A DNA stretch of 64,000 nt from NCBI RefSeq assembly GCF_017948305.1, contig NZ_CP072842.1:2114501-2178500 (forward strand). Reading direction: 5' to 3'. Each line of letters begins with the position of its first letter. Position 1 is the first letter of the stretch. The position numbers and the translations under genes were made by a program. Shown here in pieces: positions 15,914 to 23,187 of this stretch. Source of the DNA: Faecalibacter bovis (GTDB lineage: Bacteria > Bacteroidota > Bacteroidia > Flavobacteriales > Weeksellaceae). The notes beneath the pieces are model-generated. The model searched no databases and was not told where the DNA came from. It worked only from the letters and a program-made list of their open reading frames with translations.

Positions 15914-16522
15914 TTATGGTCTAAATGGTGGAACAGGTCTTACACGATCCATGTAAGCATCATTTGCTGTAATCATATCAATAGTTATACTTTGTCCTTT
16001 TTGAGCAGTTGAATTTTCGAAAAGTCCAAAAACTGTATAATTATTCATGTTGTTTTTTAAATTTGCTTGATCTATTATAAAATACTGAATCATAATATTT
16101 CTGTCCAAAGCATCTTGTAACCAACTTTCCTTTTGGTTTTCCCATTTCTTAACACGTTTCTTGTATTCGTCAAATGTAATTTCAGTATTATCAGCAGTTA
16201 ATTTTGTTTTTAATAATTCATTTACTACAAACTTATTAGATTTAAATTCTAATACAATTGGCGAATATTTGTCGATTTGGGTAATATCTGGAGTAGTGGA
16301 ATTGTGTACTAAGATGGCATGTAATTTATTATTTACATCCAATCCTAAAAATAAATAGAAATAACCTTTAATAGAAACATTTAGATTATTAAAATCTACG
16401 TGATTTGCTTCATTAAAAATACTTAATAATTGATTTTTAATTTGTATTTTATTAGTAGTAGAGGCTTTACTATAGCTATTTATTAAATTGCTATAATTGT
16501 TAATTAGATTTTGTGCATTCAT
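15914..16522 (-). CDS. Unknown soluble protein at the head of the kinase operon
   Basis: A 202-residue protein without signal peptide or membrane segments and without a family I recognise. It has a helical N-terminus (MNAQNLINNYSNLINSY...) and an alpha/beta core with LKDAL-like helices, and it ends with a proline/arginine-rich tail (RVRPVPPFRP). It lies 2 nt upstream of the polytopic protein, so it belongs to the operon with the histidine kinase and LuxR-type regulator. It may be a cytoplasmic ligand-binding or output component of that system; nothing in the sequence proves it. Confidence 0.65.
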   Translation of the reverse strand: MNAQNLINNYSNLINSYSKASTTNKIQIKNQLLSIFNEANHVDFNNLNVSIKGYFYLFLGLDVNNKLHAILVHNSTTPDITQIDKYSPIVLEFKSNKFVVNELLKTKLTADNTEITFDEYKKRVKKWENQKESWLQDALDRNIMIQYFIIDQANLKNNMNNYTVFGLFENSTAQKGQSITIDMITANDAYMDRVRPVPPFRP

Positions 16523-16603: not shown

Positions 16604-16632
16604 AAAAAAAGAGCTGAATAGCTATCCAACTC
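16604..16632 (-). terminator. Terminator of the JetABC operon
   Basis: Imperfect 11-bp inverted repeat (16611-16621 with 16622-16632, two mismatches) followed by T7 on the minus strand, 15 nt after the jetC stop. Confidence 0.6.
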
Positions 16633-16647
16633 TTTATTTTATCAAGT

Positions 16648-19600
16648 TTATATTTCAAATAACTCTTTTTGAGCCTTATATTGCGTTATTGGCATATCGT
16701 ATAACCACGAATATTTTTCTTCTTTTCGCTCTACATAATGCACAAACGAAATATGATCTTCTACAATATGGATGTTATCTGCAGGTGTAACCACCAATAA
16801 TTGTAGGTTCAATTGCTCACAAAGTCGCAATAAATACTTCGCTTTATCTTCATCTTGCGCTTTAAAAGCCTCATCAATCGCAATAAAACGGAACGTATTA
16901 GCTTTGTCTTTTCGCATCAACCCAAATTGATACGCAATAGCCGAACCTAAAATCGTATAGGTTAATTGGGCTTTTTCTCCACCAGAAAGCGCTCCCATAT
17001 GTTCGTGGGTTTTCACTTTTTTGTTCGTATCACGACGGAATTCTTCGGCTTTGTAATTGAACCAATAACGAACATCCATAACTTTCGATCGCCATTCTTC
17101 TTTATTCAATTTCTTGATTAATGGCGCAATATGATCATTAAAATGGTCACGTTTTTCCTCAAATAACATCAACGCATCATTTCCATTGGCAATCGCACGA
17201 TTCAATAATGCTTTGAAATCCTGAATCTCGGCTACATAATGCGGATTCGCAACCAATTGAATAAAGGTTGTGTATTCTTTGGTATTGTAATCAATTTCTG
17301 CAAGCGATTCGTTTAATAAACCAATGTTTTCTTGGATATTTTCTGACCAATTCTCGAAGAACATTCGGAAATCTCCAATTTTATTGATGATGGTTTCTTG
17401 TAAATACGATTCAAATTTCGTTTCAAAACGTGGTAAATTATCTTCGCTTAAACGCTGATAGAACTCTTGATATTCAGAAACCAATTCCAAATGAGTTGAA
17501 TCGGGTAGAGCAGAAGCATCCGAACGCCAATCCTTGTATTTTAAGATAATATCTTCTTTTGGATTTTTAAATTCGTTGATTTTTTGCTTGATTTTATCTT
17601 CCACTAATCGTTTCGAATATTCAAAACTTTTGATTTGCGTTTCTAATTCTTTCTGGAATTCCGTTTGTTTCAGCTTAATTGAAAAATAATCAATCGCCAA
17701 TAAATCTTGGTGTTTTTCTTCAAATTCTTCAATTGAAACTACATCCAACGCTTTTAAAATATCTTCGTTACGCTTGATTTCTTTTTGAATCTGTTGAATT
17801 TGTGTTTCAACTTTAAAGGTTTCACGGTTTAAATTATGAATTTCTTTTTCAGACAATAATTTCAACGTTGCCTGAACTTTCTCTAATTCGTTTTGTAAAC
17901 CTTCCGTACGATTGGAACCTGAATTTAAAACATCAATTAAATGTTGTTTTTGAGCAATTTCTTCTTCGATTTCTTTGGTTTCGATAATCGAGAAAGAAGT
18001 ATAAGTATTTTCTACTTTCGAAATCGTTTCTTTGATTTTCTCAATGAATTGAATCTTCTTTTGTGTTTCATTAATCAACAATTCATTCGCTTCAAATTCT
18101 GCCTCAAACTCTTTTAAATCTTGATAAATCGCTTGAATTTTAGAAGTATTTTCCCAACCTAAAACAAAGTTTTCTTTTCGTTTAGTTTCAGTTCTTCCAT
18201 CTTTTTGGATATTTCCATTCGCAAAAACTATCGTTCCGTCCGATAAAATGGTATTAACATTGGCAATGATTTCATCAGAACAAACAAAATTAAATTGTTC
18301 TTCAATCGTTTCTTTGATCCATTTCGCGTAAATACTTTCCGTTTTGAATTTTAGTTGATTCACCAAATGATTTTCTGAAACCGCAGGTTTTAATCCTTCC
18401 ATCGAAGTAAATCCTTTGTAGGCTAAAATTTGTAATAAAGCTTCTAATTGATTGGATTGAACGTATTTTTCGACCTCTGTTAAATATTTTTCAGGAACTA
18501 CAATTTGATGCGAAAATTGATTTAATATTTGTTCAATTGCTGTTTCCCAAGTTGGATTTTTAACTTTAATCAATTCAGCAACAAAAGGAATTTCGGCTTG
18601 TGTAGCATTTGTAAGTTGTACAATCTCATCACGAACCGTTGCAATTGTTCCTGTTATATTATTTTGATGTTTCGTTAAAAAATCAATCGTTTCTTGTGCT
18701 TGCGTAATCTCCGCTTTGATTTGATCTGCTTGATTTTTTAATTGGCGAATTTCTTCGTGTAATACCTCAACATTCGTATTGCTTTCATTTTTAATTTCTG
18801 CAATTCGCGTGATGTTTTGATTAAATTCTTCAGTTGTTGGATTTTCAATTAAACCTAAAATCTGAATCAATGCATTATACGATTGACGTTTTTCTTCAAT
18901 TGCAGCTTTTGATTTTTCCAATTGAGCCAAATCAATTTTAATTTGTTCCAACTGTTTCCCAATATCATCTGACTTAATCTGAACCGTTAAATTTGTTTCT
19001 TGATTTTTTAACGACGCTTCTTTTTCCTTTAATTTTTCCAATTCTTGCTGGAAACCTTGGAAAGTAGTATTGGCTTTCGTTAATTCTTCTTGCGCTAAGT
19101 GTAACCCTTTTTGAGCAAACCAATAAACGGCAGTTTCTTTGGAATGATTTAAGGTTTCAAGCTTTCCGTTTAAATCAATGATTTTGTTGGCGTGTTCGTT
19201 AATCGGCTCCAAATATTTGATTTGGTCTTTGACCTTTTCAATATTGATTTTCGCTTCCATCAACGTGTTGAAACTTTCTTTCAGCTGTAAGAATTCGGCT
19301 TCAGCGTTCCATTCTTCCAGCATATTGGTACGAATAAATTCGTCTAAATCTTCTAAAACTTTTACTCCAACCACTTGGTTGAAAAGCGTCAATGATTTGG
19401 AAGATTTCATTCCGAATAAATCCGAGATTCGATCACCATAAGCAATCGGACCGTCCATGAATTCGATTTTCTTTTTCGTCGAATTCGAATTGTATTTTTT
19501 ATCTAAAGTCTTTTTCCAATTTCCTTTTTGATCGAAATGAGAAAAGTCGGTTTCTATTAATAAAGGAACGTGCGCAATTCCAAACGTACGTTTTAATTCA

Positions 19601-20022
19601 TCACCCGAAAACCATCGAACTTGGAAAATCGTGATTTTCTTTCCGTCTTTGTTATCAAAATGCGCTAAAATAATCGAATATGTATTTTTATCTCGCAATG
19701 ATTTTGTCATCGTACCCAAATCACCTTCACGCTGAATGTGGGCATAATTTCCTAAAACATAAGTTTCTTCCGTACGGTCACCTTTTTTATCGACACCAGA
19801 AGATTGGTTGTAAAAACGGTCTTTTTTTGCCGGAACCAACAAGGTTAAAAGTGCATCGATAAACGTACTTTTCCCAGAAGCATTCGCTCCCGTTAACAAC
19901 GAATTATTCCCTTCGGGCTGAATACGGAAAATGCGATCTGTAAAAGTTCCCCAGTTGAAAACTTCCATATATTGCAGTCTGTATCCCGATTCTTCGGATG
20001 TTGTACTAAATAGATTCAACAT
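16648..20022 (-). CDS. jetC: JetC/MksB-type SMC ATPase
   Basis: SMC-like ATPase of 1124 aa, the motor subunit of Wadjet/MksBEF complexes. The Walker A is GANASGKST (residues 44-52). The ABC signature ALSGGEK is near residue 1011 and the Walker B IAIDEAF near 1047. Long coiled coils run through ~280-480 and ~620-830 around a hinge-like region. The head starts with an FNWGTF motif typical of JetC/MukB-like proteins. It overlaps jetB by 17 nt. In known systems JetC loop-extrudes DNA with JetA (kleisin) and JetB (KITE), and JetD cuts the plasmid. No JetD (DUF3322/DUF2220) gene follows; the next genes are the terminator and the unrelated kinase operon. Confidence 0.9.
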   Translation of the reverse strand: MLNLFSTTSEESGYRLQYMEVFNWGTFTDRIFRIQPEGNNSLLTGANASGKSTFIDALLTLLVPAKKDRFYNQSSGVDKKGDRTEETYVLGNYAHIQREGDLGTMTKSLRDKNTYSIILAHFDNKDGKKITIFQVRWFSGDELKRTFGIAHVPLLIETDFSHFDQKGNWKKTLDKKYNSNSTKKKIEFMDGPIAYGDRISDLFGMKSSKSLTLFNQVVGVKVLEDLDEFIRTNMLEEWNAEAEFLQLKESFNTLMEAKINIEKVKDQIKYLEPINEHANKIIDLNGKLETLNHSKETAVYWFAQKGLHLAQEELTKANTTFQGFQQELEKLKEKEASLKNQETNLTVQIKSDDIGKQLEQIKIDLAQLEKSKAAIEEKRQSYNALIQILGLIENPTTEEFNQNITRIAEIKNESNTNVEVLHEEIRQLKNQADQIKAEITQAQETIDFLTKHQNNITGTIATVRDEIVQLTNATQAEIPFVAELIKVKNPTWETAIEQILNQFSHQIVVPEKYLTEVEKYVQSNQLEALLQILAYKGFTSMEGLKPAVSENHLVNQLKFKTESIYAKWIKETIEEQFNFVCSDEIIANVNTILSDGTIVFANGNIQKDGRTETKRKENFVLGWENTSKIQAIYQDLKEFEAEFEANELLINETQKKIQFIEKIKETISKVENTYTSFSIIETKEIEEEIAQKQHLIDVLNSGSNRTEGLQNELEKVQATLKLLSEKEIHNLNRETFKVETQIQQIQKEIKRNEDILKALDVVSIEEFEEKHQDLLAIDYFSIKLKQTEFQKELETQIKSFEYSKRLVEDKIKQKINEFKNPKEDIILKYKDWRSDASALPDSTHLELVSEYQEFYQRLSEDNLPRFETKFESYLQETIINKIGDFRMFFENWSENIQENIGLLNESLAEIDYNTKEYTTFIQLVANPHYVAEIQDFKALLNRAIANGNDALMLFEEKRDHFNDHIAPLIKKLNKEEWRSKVMDVRYWFNYKAEEFRRDTNKKVKTHEHMGALSGGEKAQLTYTILGSAIAYQFGLMRKDKANTFRFIAIDEAFKAQDEDKAKYLLRLCEQLNLQLLVVTPADNIHIVEDHISFVHYVERKEEKYSWLYDMPITQYKAQKELFEI

Positions 20023-20587
20023 ATTCCTCTAATTTGTTTTTAAATTCTTGTAATTGATCCAACGTCACTTTTTCTTTGATGATACGATGAATTTGATATT
20101 TGGTTTCAAACTCATTTTTATCAATTTCTTTTAAATAACCTAAATCCACAATTCGGCGAATGTTAAGATCTAAGTCTTTTAAAAGTTTGACTTTGTTATA
20201 TGTTTCGGGTAAGAATAATTCGACTTCTTCTTTGATTTCTTGATAGGTGATGAATTTTTCACTTACATCAAATTGCGTAGGATTTTGGTCGAATTCTTCT
20301 AAACTTTGGCGTAAAACCACCAAAATAATCGAAGCTTCGAATCCAATTTTACGTTTAGAAACTAATCCAATTGTATTTCCTTCACGGTCTTCTAATTCGC
20401 GTAAATAAGCAAATCCTTCGTCTTTTTTTACCACTAATTCTAATCCAATTAAATTCAAATAATTCTGAATTTCCACTTGGTAGTTTAAAACATCTTGCCA
20501 AAGGGATTGATGATTCTCAATCGGTTGTTTTAAAAGCTTTACAATCGCTTTAGAATAGGGTTTGATATGTTGTTCTAAATTACTCAT
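20006..20587 (-). CDS. jetB: JetB/MksE-type DUF4194 protein
   Basis: A 193-residue DUF4194 protein, the KITE-type winged-helix subunit of the JetABC (MksFEB) SMC complex. Readable features are the helical N-terminus, FAYLRELEDREG, the basic segment KRKIGFEASIILVVLRQSLEEF, and the C-terminal winged-helix-like segment DLDLNIRRIVDLGYLKEI. It sits between jetA (8-nt overlap) and jetC (17-nt overlap), the canonical order, so the three are translated from one mRNA. Confidence 0.88.
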   Translation of the reverse strand: MSNLEQHIKPYSKAIVKLLKQPIENHQSLWQDVLNYQVEIQNYLNLIGLELVVKKDEGFAYLRELEDREGNTIGLVSKRKIGFEASIILVVLRQSLEEFDQNPTQFDVSEKFITYQEIKEEVELFLPETYNKVKLLKDLDLNIRRIVDLGYLKEIDKNEFETKYQIHRIIKEKVTLDQLQEFKNKLEEYVESI

Positions 20588-22043
20588 ACTTTAAGGTAAT
20601 TGTAGGAATTTGTATTGATTTTTGTTCTGCTTTGTTGAATACAATTTCTTGTAATTCTGCATCGTTTTTGTCGTGATTGTACTCGTTACTTAACGCGATA
20701 AAAGCAAAAAGTTCGGGTAAACCTTTTTGTAAACCACCCGAATTTTCGATGATTTGATTCAAATCTAATTCAGAATTTGTCGCTAATTGTTCGTTGATAC
20801 GATCTCGTATCACTTGTTTATCAATCGCGTATTTATTGAAAATCTTTTCTAAATGTTCAGATTTTGAAATATCAGATTCAGCAACTTTTGGACGCGCATC
20901 ATAAATTACTTCTTGGGCTTGTTCCATCGTTAATTTTCGGTCAAAAGGTAAATGGATATTAATTCCGTCATCCACCATTAACGAAATATCCGGCGATTCT
21001 TTTTGTTGACTAATTTTAATCAATGATTTTTTGATATCCTGAATCGTTTTCTTCGTGGCTTTTGCATTTGACACTTGAGTTTCACGAATCACTTTACTCA
21101 GTTTATCCGCCATTTTATCGTTGGCTTTGTACACTTTTTGCCCAGCCGCGTGCAGATGCTTTTTCATATTTTTTAGATAAGCATCTTGAATCTCAATTTC
21201 TTTTTGCGATAGGGTAGCGTACAATTCTTGCGTTAATTTATCCCATTCGGTTTGAAGCGAAGGATTCAACAAGAAATTCCAGAACGCATAAAAGCTTTTT
21301 CCTTGTGGACTTTCTTTTAAGCTATCCAACGAATTAAAAGTAAAATCTAAAATCTCTGATTTAGATAAGGTTCCTTCGTTATGACGTTGGTAAATTTCTT
21401 TCGTTATGGTTTTGAAATTATCTTCTACTTCCTTAAAGTCAGAAAGTAATTCCTTTGCCGCTTGGGTAATTTGATTAACTCGTGGAATAATTTCAAAATC
21501 TTCGTACACTTTTAAAGATTCACCTAAACGTAAATGAGTCATTTCGTGTTCAATTTCTTTTTTACGTTCTTCCAAAATTGCCAAACGTTGTTCTTTGTTA
21601 TCGTTCGAATATTCGACTAATTCTTTCAATTGAGTAACAATGGTTTTGAATTTCGATTCCGTTCCGACATATTCGTCTTTGTCTAAACTGTTGATCCAAT
21701 CCAATGTTTTACTCGTGTGAGAAGAAAGTTCGTAAAAAACTTCTCCATTTTCGGTCTGAAAGTTGGATAAAAAGCCACGATTGGTCCAATCGGTAATGTA
21801 TTTTTTAGCTTTTAATTCGTACGAATCAAAAACCTGAATGTCTGTTTCTTCGTCATTTTCTACTTGACGATATTCCAAATAATCCGTTAAACGAGAATGT
21901 ATAATCTCTGAAGATAAAATGCGATGTTTCTCTGCGAATTGATCAGCCAAAAAGACCAAAATCAATTCTCTATTTCGCATTTTTAGCAAATCCACGCTGG
22001 GTGAACGTTGTAAAATGGATGAAATTTTTGAACCGTCTAACAT
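20580..22043 (-). CDS. jetA: JetA/MksF-type DUF3375 kleisin protein
   Basis: A 487-residue DUF3375 protein, the kleisin-like subunit of Wadjet/MksBEF complexes that bridges the two SMC heads. The N-terminal winged helix (LLKMRNRELILVFLADQF, residues ~20-38) and the long helical middle (~140-330) fit the family. It is the first gene of the jetABC operon. The DNA of this operon looks slightly less AT-rich by eye than its flanks, which may hint at transfer, but this was not measured. Anti-plasmid activity is known for complete JetABCD systems and is only inferred here. Confidence 0.88.
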   Translation of the reverse strand: MLDGSKISSILQRSPSVDLLKMRNRELILVFLADQFAEKHRILSSEIIHSRLTDYLEYRQVENDEETDIQVFDSYELKAKKYITDWTNRGFLSNFQTENGEVFYELSSHTSKTLDWINSLDKDEYVGTESKFKTIVTQLKELVEYSNDNKEQRLAILEERKKEIEHEMTHLRLGESLKVYEDFEIIPRVNQITQAAKELLSDFKEVEDNFKTITKEIYQRHNEGTLSKSEILDFTFNSLDSLKESPQGKSFYAFWNFLLNPSLQTEWDKLTQELYATLSQKEIEIQDAYLKNMKKHLHAAGQKVYKANDKMADKLSKVIRETQVSNAKATKKTIQDIKKSLIKISQQKESPDISLMVDDGINIHLPFDRKLTMEQAQEVIYDARPKVAESDISKSEHLEKIFNKYAIDKQVIRDRINEQLATNSELDLNQIIENSGGLQKGLPELFAFIALSNEYNHDKNDAELQEIVFNKAEQKSIQIPTITLKYE

Positions 22044-22173
22044 ATAAATGATTAATAATTAAAATCTTAACTAAAACGAGCTAAAATAGAGGATAGACGG
22101 GCAATTTAAGTTTTTAAAATTGTTTTTTAAAACCTAGAAAGCGTTAAAATGAAAAGACTTATAAACAAGAAAA

Positions 22174-22746
22174 TTATTCGATTTTGATTTGGAAATTGTC
22201 CAATAATCCAATGCAATTTTCTTTTGAAAATTTAGCGTTTTTAACTTTGTTTTGTGTCGGATTAATAGAAATGTTATACGATGAGGTTAGATTCGCTTTC
22301 TCTATATTAGTTTGATCAAAAATTGCATTCATTAAGTTACAATTTTCAAAATAAGTTTGCGATAAATCAGCGTAAGCGAAATCTACATTTTCTAATGTAC
22401 AATCTTTGAAATGAGATTTAGAAAGTTGAACTTCATAAAAAGAAGAATCATTCAGAATACAATTATTAAACTTAATTTTTAATCCAAATTTATTACTGGT
22501 TTCCAAATTAAAACCAATCATTTTACAATTCGTAAAACTGACATCTTGAAACGTGGTTCCGTTGATTTGCGCTAAGCTCAAATTACACTCTATAAATTCG
22601 CAGTTGATAAAATTAAAATCATTTAAATCAACTCCGTTAAAATTGCATTGAACAAATTGACATTGTTCATAATCCCCGAAAGATAGAGGAGAAGTTGTGA
22701 AATCTATTTTATCAAAACGTTGATCGGCTGTGTAATTCTTATGCAT
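22174..22746 (-). CDS. Qnr-like pentapeptide-repeat protein
   Basis: A 190-residue protein made almost entirely of pentapeptide repeats A/C-x-F/L-x-x with Phe or Leu every fifth residue (for example CNFNGVDLNDFNFINCEF and FKDCTLENVDFAYADL). These form a right-handed quadrilateral beta-helix that imitates DNA. A short insertion near residues 85-90 and a helical C-terminal tail match the gyrase-protecting Qnr/MfpA group common in flavobacteria. Its promoter box lies in the loop of the upstream terminator hairpin. It is encoded 130 nt ahead of jetA on the same strand; a functional link to topology is possible but unproven. Confidence 0.8.
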   Translation of the reverse strand: MHKNYTADQRFDKIDFTTSPLSFGDYEQCQFVQCNFNGVDLNDFNFINCEFIECNLSLAQINGTTFQDVSFTNCKMIGFNLETSNKFGLKIKFNNCILNDSSFYEVQLSKSHFKDCTLENVDFAYADLSQTYFENCNLMNAIFDQTNIEKANLTSSYNISINPTQNKVKNAKFSKENCIGLLDNFQIKIE

Positions 22747-22787
22747 AAAAAAATCGTATTCGCTCCAAATGTAAGAAAGAATACGAT
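22746..22787 (-). terminator. Terminator of the VOC gene, abutting the pentapeptide-repeat start codon
   Basis: Nine-bp perfect stem (22753-22761 with 22779-22787), 17-nt loop, and T7 directly touching the ATG of the pentapeptide-repeat gene at 22746. The loop carries the -7 box of that gene. Confidence 0.7.
22766..22773 (-). promoter_or_regulatory. -7 element for the pentapeptide-repeat gene, inside a terminator loop
   Basis: TACATTTG (TAnnTTTG) on the minus strand, 19 nt upstream of the start codon at 22746. Confidence 0.4.
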
Positions 22788-22809
22788 GAATTTAATTTTA
22801 AATCTTGGA

Positions 22810-23187
22810 TTAATCTTCGTCTCCGTAATCAAATTCGATGGCTTCACCGAATTGTAAAATGTATCCGTTGTTATCTTCGATTGCAAACTCGCGCATTCCC
22901 CAATCAAACGTTTCGATTTCGTAAACCACTTTGTTGTGTTTTAATTCTTCCCACGCTTCATCCGCATTTTCTACATTAAAGTATAATGTTCCTGTGAATT
23001 GAGGTTGTTTAAAATCAGGATTTGCTTCCGGATTAGCAATGTTGATTTCAATATCGCCATTTTGCATGCATGTCCAAACTAAATCCTCGTTTTCTTCGTT
23101 GATTTTGAATCCTAACTTTTTATAAAAAGTTGTAGTAGATTGTATATCTTTTGTCCAAATAATTGGAGTTAAGCTTTTTAATTTCAT
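22810..23187 (-). CDS. VOC-family (glyoxalase/dioxygenase fold) protein
   Basis: A 125-residue single VOC domain made of two beta-alpha-beta-beta-beta modules: LTPIIWTKDIQSTTTFYKKLGF at the N-terminus and YFNVENADEAWEELK in the middle, ending with MREFAIEDNNGYILQFGE, which supplies the usual metal-side Glu. Members range from glyoxalase I to dioxygenases and drug-binding proteins; the substrate cannot be named. It lies 6 nt after a small secreted-protein gene and is probably co-transcribed with it. Confidence 0.82.
   Translation of the reverse strand: MKLKSLTPIIWTKDIQSTTTFYKKLGFKINEENEDLVWTCMQNGDIEINIANPEANPDFKQPQFTGTLYFNVENADEAWEELKHNKVVYEIETFDWGMREFAIEDNNGYILQFGEAIEFDYGDED

Follow-up and report, generated by a model that had tools for sequence, protein, structure and literature searches.

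A JetD-less Wadjet-type JetABC operon in Faecalibacter bovis and its possible use in chromosome organization

What does the motor of a plasmid-cutting defence system do in a genome from which the cutting subunit is missing? The question is raised by a stretch of 64,000 nucleotides of the Faecalibacter bovis chromosome (contig NZ_CP072842.1, positions 2,114,501 to 2,178,500; hereafter the window), which carries the jetA, jetB and jetC genes of a type I Wadjet operon but no jetD. We favor, with a probability of about 0.55, the reading that this is a type I Wadjet motor that had lost JetD, or never had it on arrival, by the time the copies in Faecalibacter and Algoriella split, that it was kept working, and that its use is now condensin-like. 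The evidence comes from the operon itself, from searches for JetD, and from comparisons of selection and gene neighborhoods between nuclease-bearing and nuclease-less relatives.

The jetABC operon and the search for jetD

The operon is composed of three overlapping genes and a terminator-like hairpin:

20580-22043, reverse strand: jetA, 487 amino acids, DUF3375, a kleisin (MksF/MukF-like)
20006-20587, reverse strand: jetB, 193 amino acids, DUF4194, a KITE protein (MksE/MukE-like), overlapping jetA by 8 nucleotides
16648-20022, reverse strand: jetC, 1124 amino acids, an SMC ATPase (MksB/MukB-like), overlapping jetB by 17 nucleotides
16608-16635, reverse strand: intrinsic-terminator-like hairpin with a T run, 12 nucleotides past the jetC stop codon

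Pfam places JetA in DUF3375 (E-value 1.6e-87) and JetB in DUF4194 (7e-33, with a further match to MksE at 1e-10), and recognizes AAA_29, with its P loop, and SbcC_Walker_B in JetC; PADLOC scores the three as type I JetA1, JetB1 and JetC1 (629, 198 and 966 bits). Gene content and order are thus those of Wadjet type I (JetA DUF3375, JetB DUF4194, JetC SMC), and the reading-frame coordinates together with these assignments bear out the families and overlaps named in the original prediction, which was made from the sequence alone. Its statement that the ATPase motifs of JetC are intact also holds: GANASGKST, LSGGEKAQ and FIAIDEAF, which we take to be Walker A, signature and Walker B, are identical in an alignment of the five copies found in the genus.

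Sequence searches against the PDB return solely JetC chains for JetC at E-values up to 0.001 (9qxt, 3e-41; 8as8, 2e-40; 8dk2, 2.5e-38) and solely JetA chains for JetA at E-values up to 1 (8q72, 8as8 and 9qxt, 5e-11 to 7e-11). JetB gives a weak match by sequence (0.94); its AlphaFold2 model (mean predicted local distance difference test score 86.1) matches JetB of 8dk1 and 8as8 and MukE of 3rpu, with E-values of about 2e-7. JetC matches the SMC hinge model PF06470 at an E-value of 0.008 and 17 bits, under the cut-off of 22.5.

The operon seems to terminate just past jetC. Terminator-like sites number five in 7.5 kb, where 3.8 are expected by chance; the predicted one is credible because it lies directly after jetC and because a hairpin with a T run, of differing sequence, recurs shortly after jetC in all five genus copies.

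Neither Pfam model for the nuclease, PF09983 (JetD_C) or PF11795 (DUF3322), has a match in the complete 2.84 Mb F. bovis genome (a single contig of 2,835,235 bases, 99.99% completeness), and neither has one in the four other JetABC-carrying genomes of the genus, three of which are drafts of 99% completeness. Among the six genomes searched, each model matches only the outgroup Halpernia frigidisoli, which has jetD; this genome and Corynebacterium glutamicum served as positive controls, and both match. An unfiltered hidden Markov model search that took in the window together with 22 loci (23 sequences) found no jetD remnant, the best E-value being 0.38 overall and 1.4 in the window; four JetD-bearing loci scored 8e-139 to 4e-203, these being among the sequences from which the model was built. 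The absence of JetD near the operon, as originally described, is therefore upheld, and a distant JetD in the same genome, which had been offered as one of three options for how the complex works, is ruled out as far as the two Pfam models can tell.

The operon accordingly is a JetD-less member of the Wadjet group, MksBEF/MukBEF-like, in which the genes for SMC ATPase, kleisin and KITE protein are intact and no MksG/JetD was found. It shares its three families, their order and their overlapping genes with the JetABCD systems of Escherichia coli GF4-3 and Pseudomonas aeruginosa PA14 and with MksBEFG of C. glutamicum, but differs from these type I Wadjets in that JetD was found in neither operon nor genome, and in that it occupies one chromosomal place within the genus.

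The locus in Faecalibacter and Algoriella

JetABC is present in five of the 14 genomes of the Faecalibacter/Algoriella group: F. bovis (G000), Faecalibacter macacae (G001, locus L015), G004 (L009), Algoriella xinjiangensis (G007, L017) and F. rhinopitheci (G012, L016); H. frigidisoli (G019, L013) was the outgroup. In all five genomes the operon is preceded by the same pentapeptide-repeat gene and has a glyoxalase and an amidase gene close by; the genes 3' of jetC vary from copy to copy. The pentapeptide-repeat gene (22174-22746, 130 nucleotides upstream of jetA) had been counted into the operon by drawing its extent to 22746; all 14 genus genomes have it, with or without JetABC, and it is therefore a neighbor, not an operon part. 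The same distribution rules it out as a partner or immunity protein.

Could something other than JetD serve as the effector, the second option of the original prediction? When the neighbors of jetA were compared across relatives, no gene was found that is both present in all five genus loci and restricted to them, and by eye no downstream gene, among those listed, is common to different JetD-less clades; another effector at the locus is unlikely. A downstream 202-amino-acid gene and a cluster of membrane protein, kinase and regulator were considered as replacements and rejected, neither being found around the operon in the stretches of G012 and G007 examined. JetABC could still act with a nuclease or topoisomerase encoded elsewhere, for example of OLD type or type IIA, much as MukB is reported to bind topoisomerase IV (PMC10123090). 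We regard such a partnership as improbable, given that no neighbor is common and exclusive to the five copies and that no positive evidence for a partner was found, with no nuclease family other than JetD having been searched for. The 202-amino-acid gene (15914-16522, just downstream of jetC, no Pfam match) occupies the same place in G004, at about 32–35% identity, and in G001, at 71%, and was not found there in G012 or G007; by these comparisons it is an unusually fast-evolving gene.

The arrangement in Algoriella bears on where the operon ends. Here the order is pentapeptide-repeat gene, jetABC, terminator and a 728-amino-acid gene, presumably pnp. In two JetABC-free genomes, G013 and G010, read base by base, the pentapeptide-repeat gene leads directly into an almost identical terminator and then into that 728-amino-acid gene; the Algoriella operon thus occupies this gap and finishes with the jetC stop codon, leaving no room for a jetD. 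In a tree of six flanking genes from 13 of the 14 genomes (G005 left out; five rows have under half of the columns), one branch with support 93/92 parts JetABC carriers from non-carriers, and Algoriella is the first branch on the side that holds the non-carriers. Under a midpoint root, itself unproven, the tree points to an ancestral JetD-less operon that was lost once in the genus.

Nuclease-bearing and nuclease-less operons compared

A scan of the genome collection with six JetA rows confirmed 102 loci, and 80 were retained: 51 have jetD, 19 do not, and 10 are cut by contig ends. The 19 JetD-less loci belong to Faecalibacter/Algoriella together with one Myroides-labelled metagenome-assembled genome (4), Pedobacter (7), Arenibacter (2) and Phocaeicola/Bacteroides (4), plus L076 and L091; in the Myroides-labelled case (L014) the contig stops about 200 nucleotides past jetC. 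JetD was not found in 13 of the 14 genomes of these loci that were searched, some of them metagenome-assembled and with completeness not given; L073 and L075 lay outside the search. The exception is Phocaeicola faecicola (G108): besides its JetABC locus without the nuclease, it encodes at another place a JetD that follows a further jetC (L072, L099), and the two forms may coexist in this one genome.

In an evenly drawn sample of the class, DUF3375 scores above cut-off in 18 of 395 genomes, and 13 of these 18 also have JetD_C. The other five are F. bovis, G488 (intact JetABC), G160, G360 (at a contig end) and G471, in which the jetC frame is only 439 amino acids long and no JetD is present. In the JetD-less G160 (L146, 6559-13240) several small genes, toxin-antitoxin-like by eye, stand between jetB and jetC. 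Close relatives of JetA on plasmids did not emerge: matches there are confined to seven records, all at 24–25% identity.

The JetD label changes six times on a mixture-model tree of JetABC, at least four of these changes being forced by starred branches; the tree comprises 48 of the 76 rows of an earlier one, was built by a quick search after removal of four cut-off loci, and carries a long-branch warning for L081. It separates the Faecalibacter, Arenibacter and Bacteroides groups. The earlier tree had grouped these three (97% by SH-like approximate likelihood ratio test) with nine label changes, and was superseded on account of its long branches and because cut-off loci L019, L029, L040 and L064 had been counted as JetD-less. 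The nuclease-less operons fall in separate clades, and the label changes are presumably losses, which suggests that jetD was lost several times. L071, which has jetD, lies very near on the earlier tree to L073-L075, three Bacteroides caecigallinarum records without it, and this suggests a recent loss or gain of jetD.

Selection on the operon was estimated from the ratio of nonsynonymous to synonymous substitution (dN/dS). For the window JetA, JetB and JetC against G004, G001 and G012 it is 0.028–0.092, and against Algoriella, where the synonymous distance (dS) is above 1.2, it is 0.10–0.19; among neighboring genes, cydA (0.05) and the desaturase (0.07), each against G012 alone, have values similar to those of the first comparison, and the amidase has 0.04–0.20. 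These values bear on the view that jetABC is a decaying remnant, being lost in its turn after jetD. Presence in five of 14 genomes is sporadic enough to fit it, and decay does occur elsewhere, both in G471 and in Halpernia. Yet each of the five genus copies has all three reading frames open, down to 67–79% identity, no trace of jetD is left in the window, and dN/dS against the three genus mates is low, so that this view is strongly disfavored. The Halpernia locus (L013, 1501-4920) is a JetABCD operon in which an internal stop divides jetC into two open pieces—the reverse of the window's case, with nuclease retained and motor apparently broken.

The comparison extends beyond the genus. Using non-overlapping nearest pairs with dS of 0.05–1.3, into which 14 of 21 JetD-less and 22 of 51 JetD-bearing rows entered, the median dN/dS is 0.037 for seven JetD-less pairs from four clades and 0.100 for 11 JetD-bearing pairs (Mann-Whitney p = 0.011); without the pairs that contain a split jetC it is 0.037 (n = 7) against 0.100 (n = 9; p = 0.016). 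The ratios come from a simple counting method, the samples are small and drawn from different lineages, the JetD-bearing pairs often span families, and two of the latter, which use L030 and L034, identical in JetABC, are not fully independent.

Gene neighborhoods show a corresponding contrast in a second set of pairs. All seven JetD-less pairs (two of which share a row) have 2–11 flanking orthologues in common, with synonymous distances in the flanks of the same order as in the operon, and in 19 of 21 cases the JetABC value is smaller than the flanks' median dN/dS. Eight of ten JetD-bearing pairs have no flanking orthologues in common, although three of these include a contig shorter than 8 kb. 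The remaining two share flanks: in a Capnocytophaga pair JetABC has a dN/dS of 0.07–0.09, above its three neighbors (median 0.037), and in L023/L080 jetA and jetC have a dS of 0.01 against 0.47 in the flanks. From these shared flanks and synonymous distances it appears that operons with the nuclease tend to be mobile and those without it to stay in place. Judged by dN/dS and synteny, the nuclease-less motor is one that selection has kept, and the window JetABC, with its stronger purifying selection and retained common neighbors, is on this evidence a conserved motor, not a wreck.

Possible functions of a motor without JetD

Chromosome organization, the third option of the original prediction, is the best supported of the three, and we infer it from purifying selection, stable synteny and the precedent of MksBEF and MukBEF. 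By analogy with solved JetABC and MukBEF structures, JetC (SMC ATPase), JetA (kleisin) and JetB (KITE) would form a dimer of dimers that entraps DNA and extrudes loops on ATP. Without JetD, an extrusion that finishes or stalls would not end in a cut, and the complex could instead serve condensin-like chromosome handling—loop formation, compaction and segregation—as P. aeruginosa MksBEF and MukBEF do.

Nuclease-less precedents are reported: P. aeruginosa MksBEF, MukBEF and several other members of the Wadjet group have no JetD (PMC10586767, PMC7617805), and an origin of both MukBEF and MksBEF in defence systems has been proposed (PMC10586767). The condensin MksBEF of P. aeruginosa is, like the window complex, a nuclease-less JetABC/MksFEB complex; the likeness noted here is one of composition, its function has been shown where that of the window JetABC is inferred, and P. 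aeruginosa is reported to have SMC as well (PMC7485682), of which none was found in the window genome. MukBEF of E. coli is described as a Wadjet-group complex without JetD (PMC7617805), and the predicted fold of the window JetB matches MukE, but no MukB is among the PDB sequence relatives of JetC (E-values up to 0.001), and the window JetABC is absent from nine of the 14 genus genomes. JetABC would then be helpful rather than essential, since these nine live without it. A counter-precedent is the nuclease-bearing MksBEFG of C. glutamicum, which is reported not to fold the chromosome (PMC7083940).

Smc-ScpAB has the SMC-kleisin-KITE architecture of JetABC, but belongs to different families, and its parts appear to be scarce in these genomes. 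ScpA (PF02616) was found in none of the 14 genus genomes and in one of 28 overall, ScpB not having been searched for; the SMC hinge (PF06470) was found in none of the 14 and in seven of 45 overall. In F. bovis the strongest SMC_N matches are frames of 556, 362 and 690 amino acids, and the longest among the matches listed is a weak one of 1015; we take the 556 and 362 frames to be RecN- and RecF-sized and the 1015 frame to be SbcC-sized. The control Pedobacter puniceum (G113) has an SMC_N frame of 1179 amino acids. The absence of Smc and ScpA agrees with a Hi-C study of gut bacteria that reports no known condensin in two Bacteroidetes and, for a Bacteroides without one, a weak signal of chromosome-arm alignment (PMC10197239).

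Several observations weigh against a condensin-like use. The hinge is absent from 17 of 20 genomes with JetD-less loci, from seven of 11 with jetD and from all 14 that are JetABC-free, and nine of the 14 genus mates have neither JetABC nor any Smc found here; JetABC is not a simple replacement for Smc, because these Bacteroidota commonly lack Smc with or without JetABC. A rule that JetD-less operons occur only where Smc is absent was rejected, as G110, G471 and G488 have the hinge and many JetD-bearing or JetABC-free genomes do not. The dN/dS contrast, which draws on few pairs of four JetD-less clades, may partly reflect lineage or horizontal transfer; the JetD-less pair L015/L017 (dS 1.19) has a dN/dS of 0.187, more than any other of the 18 pairs, and in L010/L011 one subunit is as high as 0.121. 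JetD-less copies share no substitutions that mark a lost docking surface for JetD: among columns conserved in 35 JetD-bearing copies, when a change had to be fixed in at least two of the five groups without JetD and in no more than one control, only scattered columns emerged (two in JetA, one in JetB, eight in JetC) and no coherent set. An IFDR contact motif is reported at the N-terminus of JetB in another Wadjet (PMC10586767); by eye it was not seen in JetB rows with or without JetD, these rows being trimmed to the match with the window JetB, so that an N-terminal extension would be lost. Nor is the chromosomal spot constant, since seven of the nine JetABC-free mates have other genes in the gap (one gene in G002 and G008, several in G003, G006 and G009, and a different neighborhood in G005 and G011).

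A further observation is that the locus may still be mobile. Between F. bovis and G004, dS is 0.34–0.45 in JetABC, 0.66 in the pentapeptide-repeat gene and 0.48 in the glyoxalase gene, whereas genes on both sides are at 1.4–1.8 or saturated, and the flank tree groups F. bovis with G001, G004 having only 24% of the columns there. For these reasons the glyoxalase-pentapeptide-jetABC block (window 16648-23187 compared with L009) has probably been exchanged between the two lineages. Such an exchange, the patchy presence in five of 14 genomes at a variable spot, and nearest relatives that are plasmid-defence operons would all suit a JetABC that still defends, extruding and trapping small circular DNA so as to hinder its replication, expression or partition. 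The parallel would be eukaryotic Smc5/6, which silences extrachromosomal DNA and is reported to act in this way on some viral genomes (PMC7617805). In Bacillus subtilis, however, suppression of plasmid transformation is reported to need all four subunits (PMC10586767). The neighbors in the window look by eye like ordinary housekeeping genes, all seven JetD-less pairs retain common neighbors, and selection is tighter than in nuclease-bearing operons; defence without cutting therefore strikes us as unlikely, though less so than the partnership with another enzyme considered above. We retain the reading of a conserved motor in condensin-like use: no jetD co-occurring with the operon was found in relatives, and jetC has not been inactivated.

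JetD-less operons are known as a class, since a survey of Wadjet-group operons across over 250,000 genomes treats the nuclease gene as optional (PMC7617805); the string "Bacteroid" is absent from its main text. We found no literature that joins Wadjet, Bacteroidetes and SMC, and the way in which operons with and without the nuclease differ in mobility and selection, which may be the part that is new, is undescribed in the literature searched, a body that mostly excludes subscription papers and preprints.

A broader proposal is more tentative, and we consider it less probable than the reading of the window locus. In the Bacteroidota, in many genomes of which no Smc-ScpAB is seen, a mobile plasmid-cutting Wadjet motor might have been domesticated several times through loss of its nuclease, each time becoming immobile, coming under housekeeping-level selection and taking up condensin-like work. 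JetABC also bears on how chromosomes are folded where no Smc or ScpA is found. For MukBEF and MksBEF the step from defence to housekeeping is ancient; here it seems to have been taken several times, with nuclease-bearing relatives at hand so that before and after can be compared, and the window case makes the transition testable. If true, this repeated domestication would be a natural experiment, several times replicated, on the turning of a defence SMC complex into a chromosome organizer.

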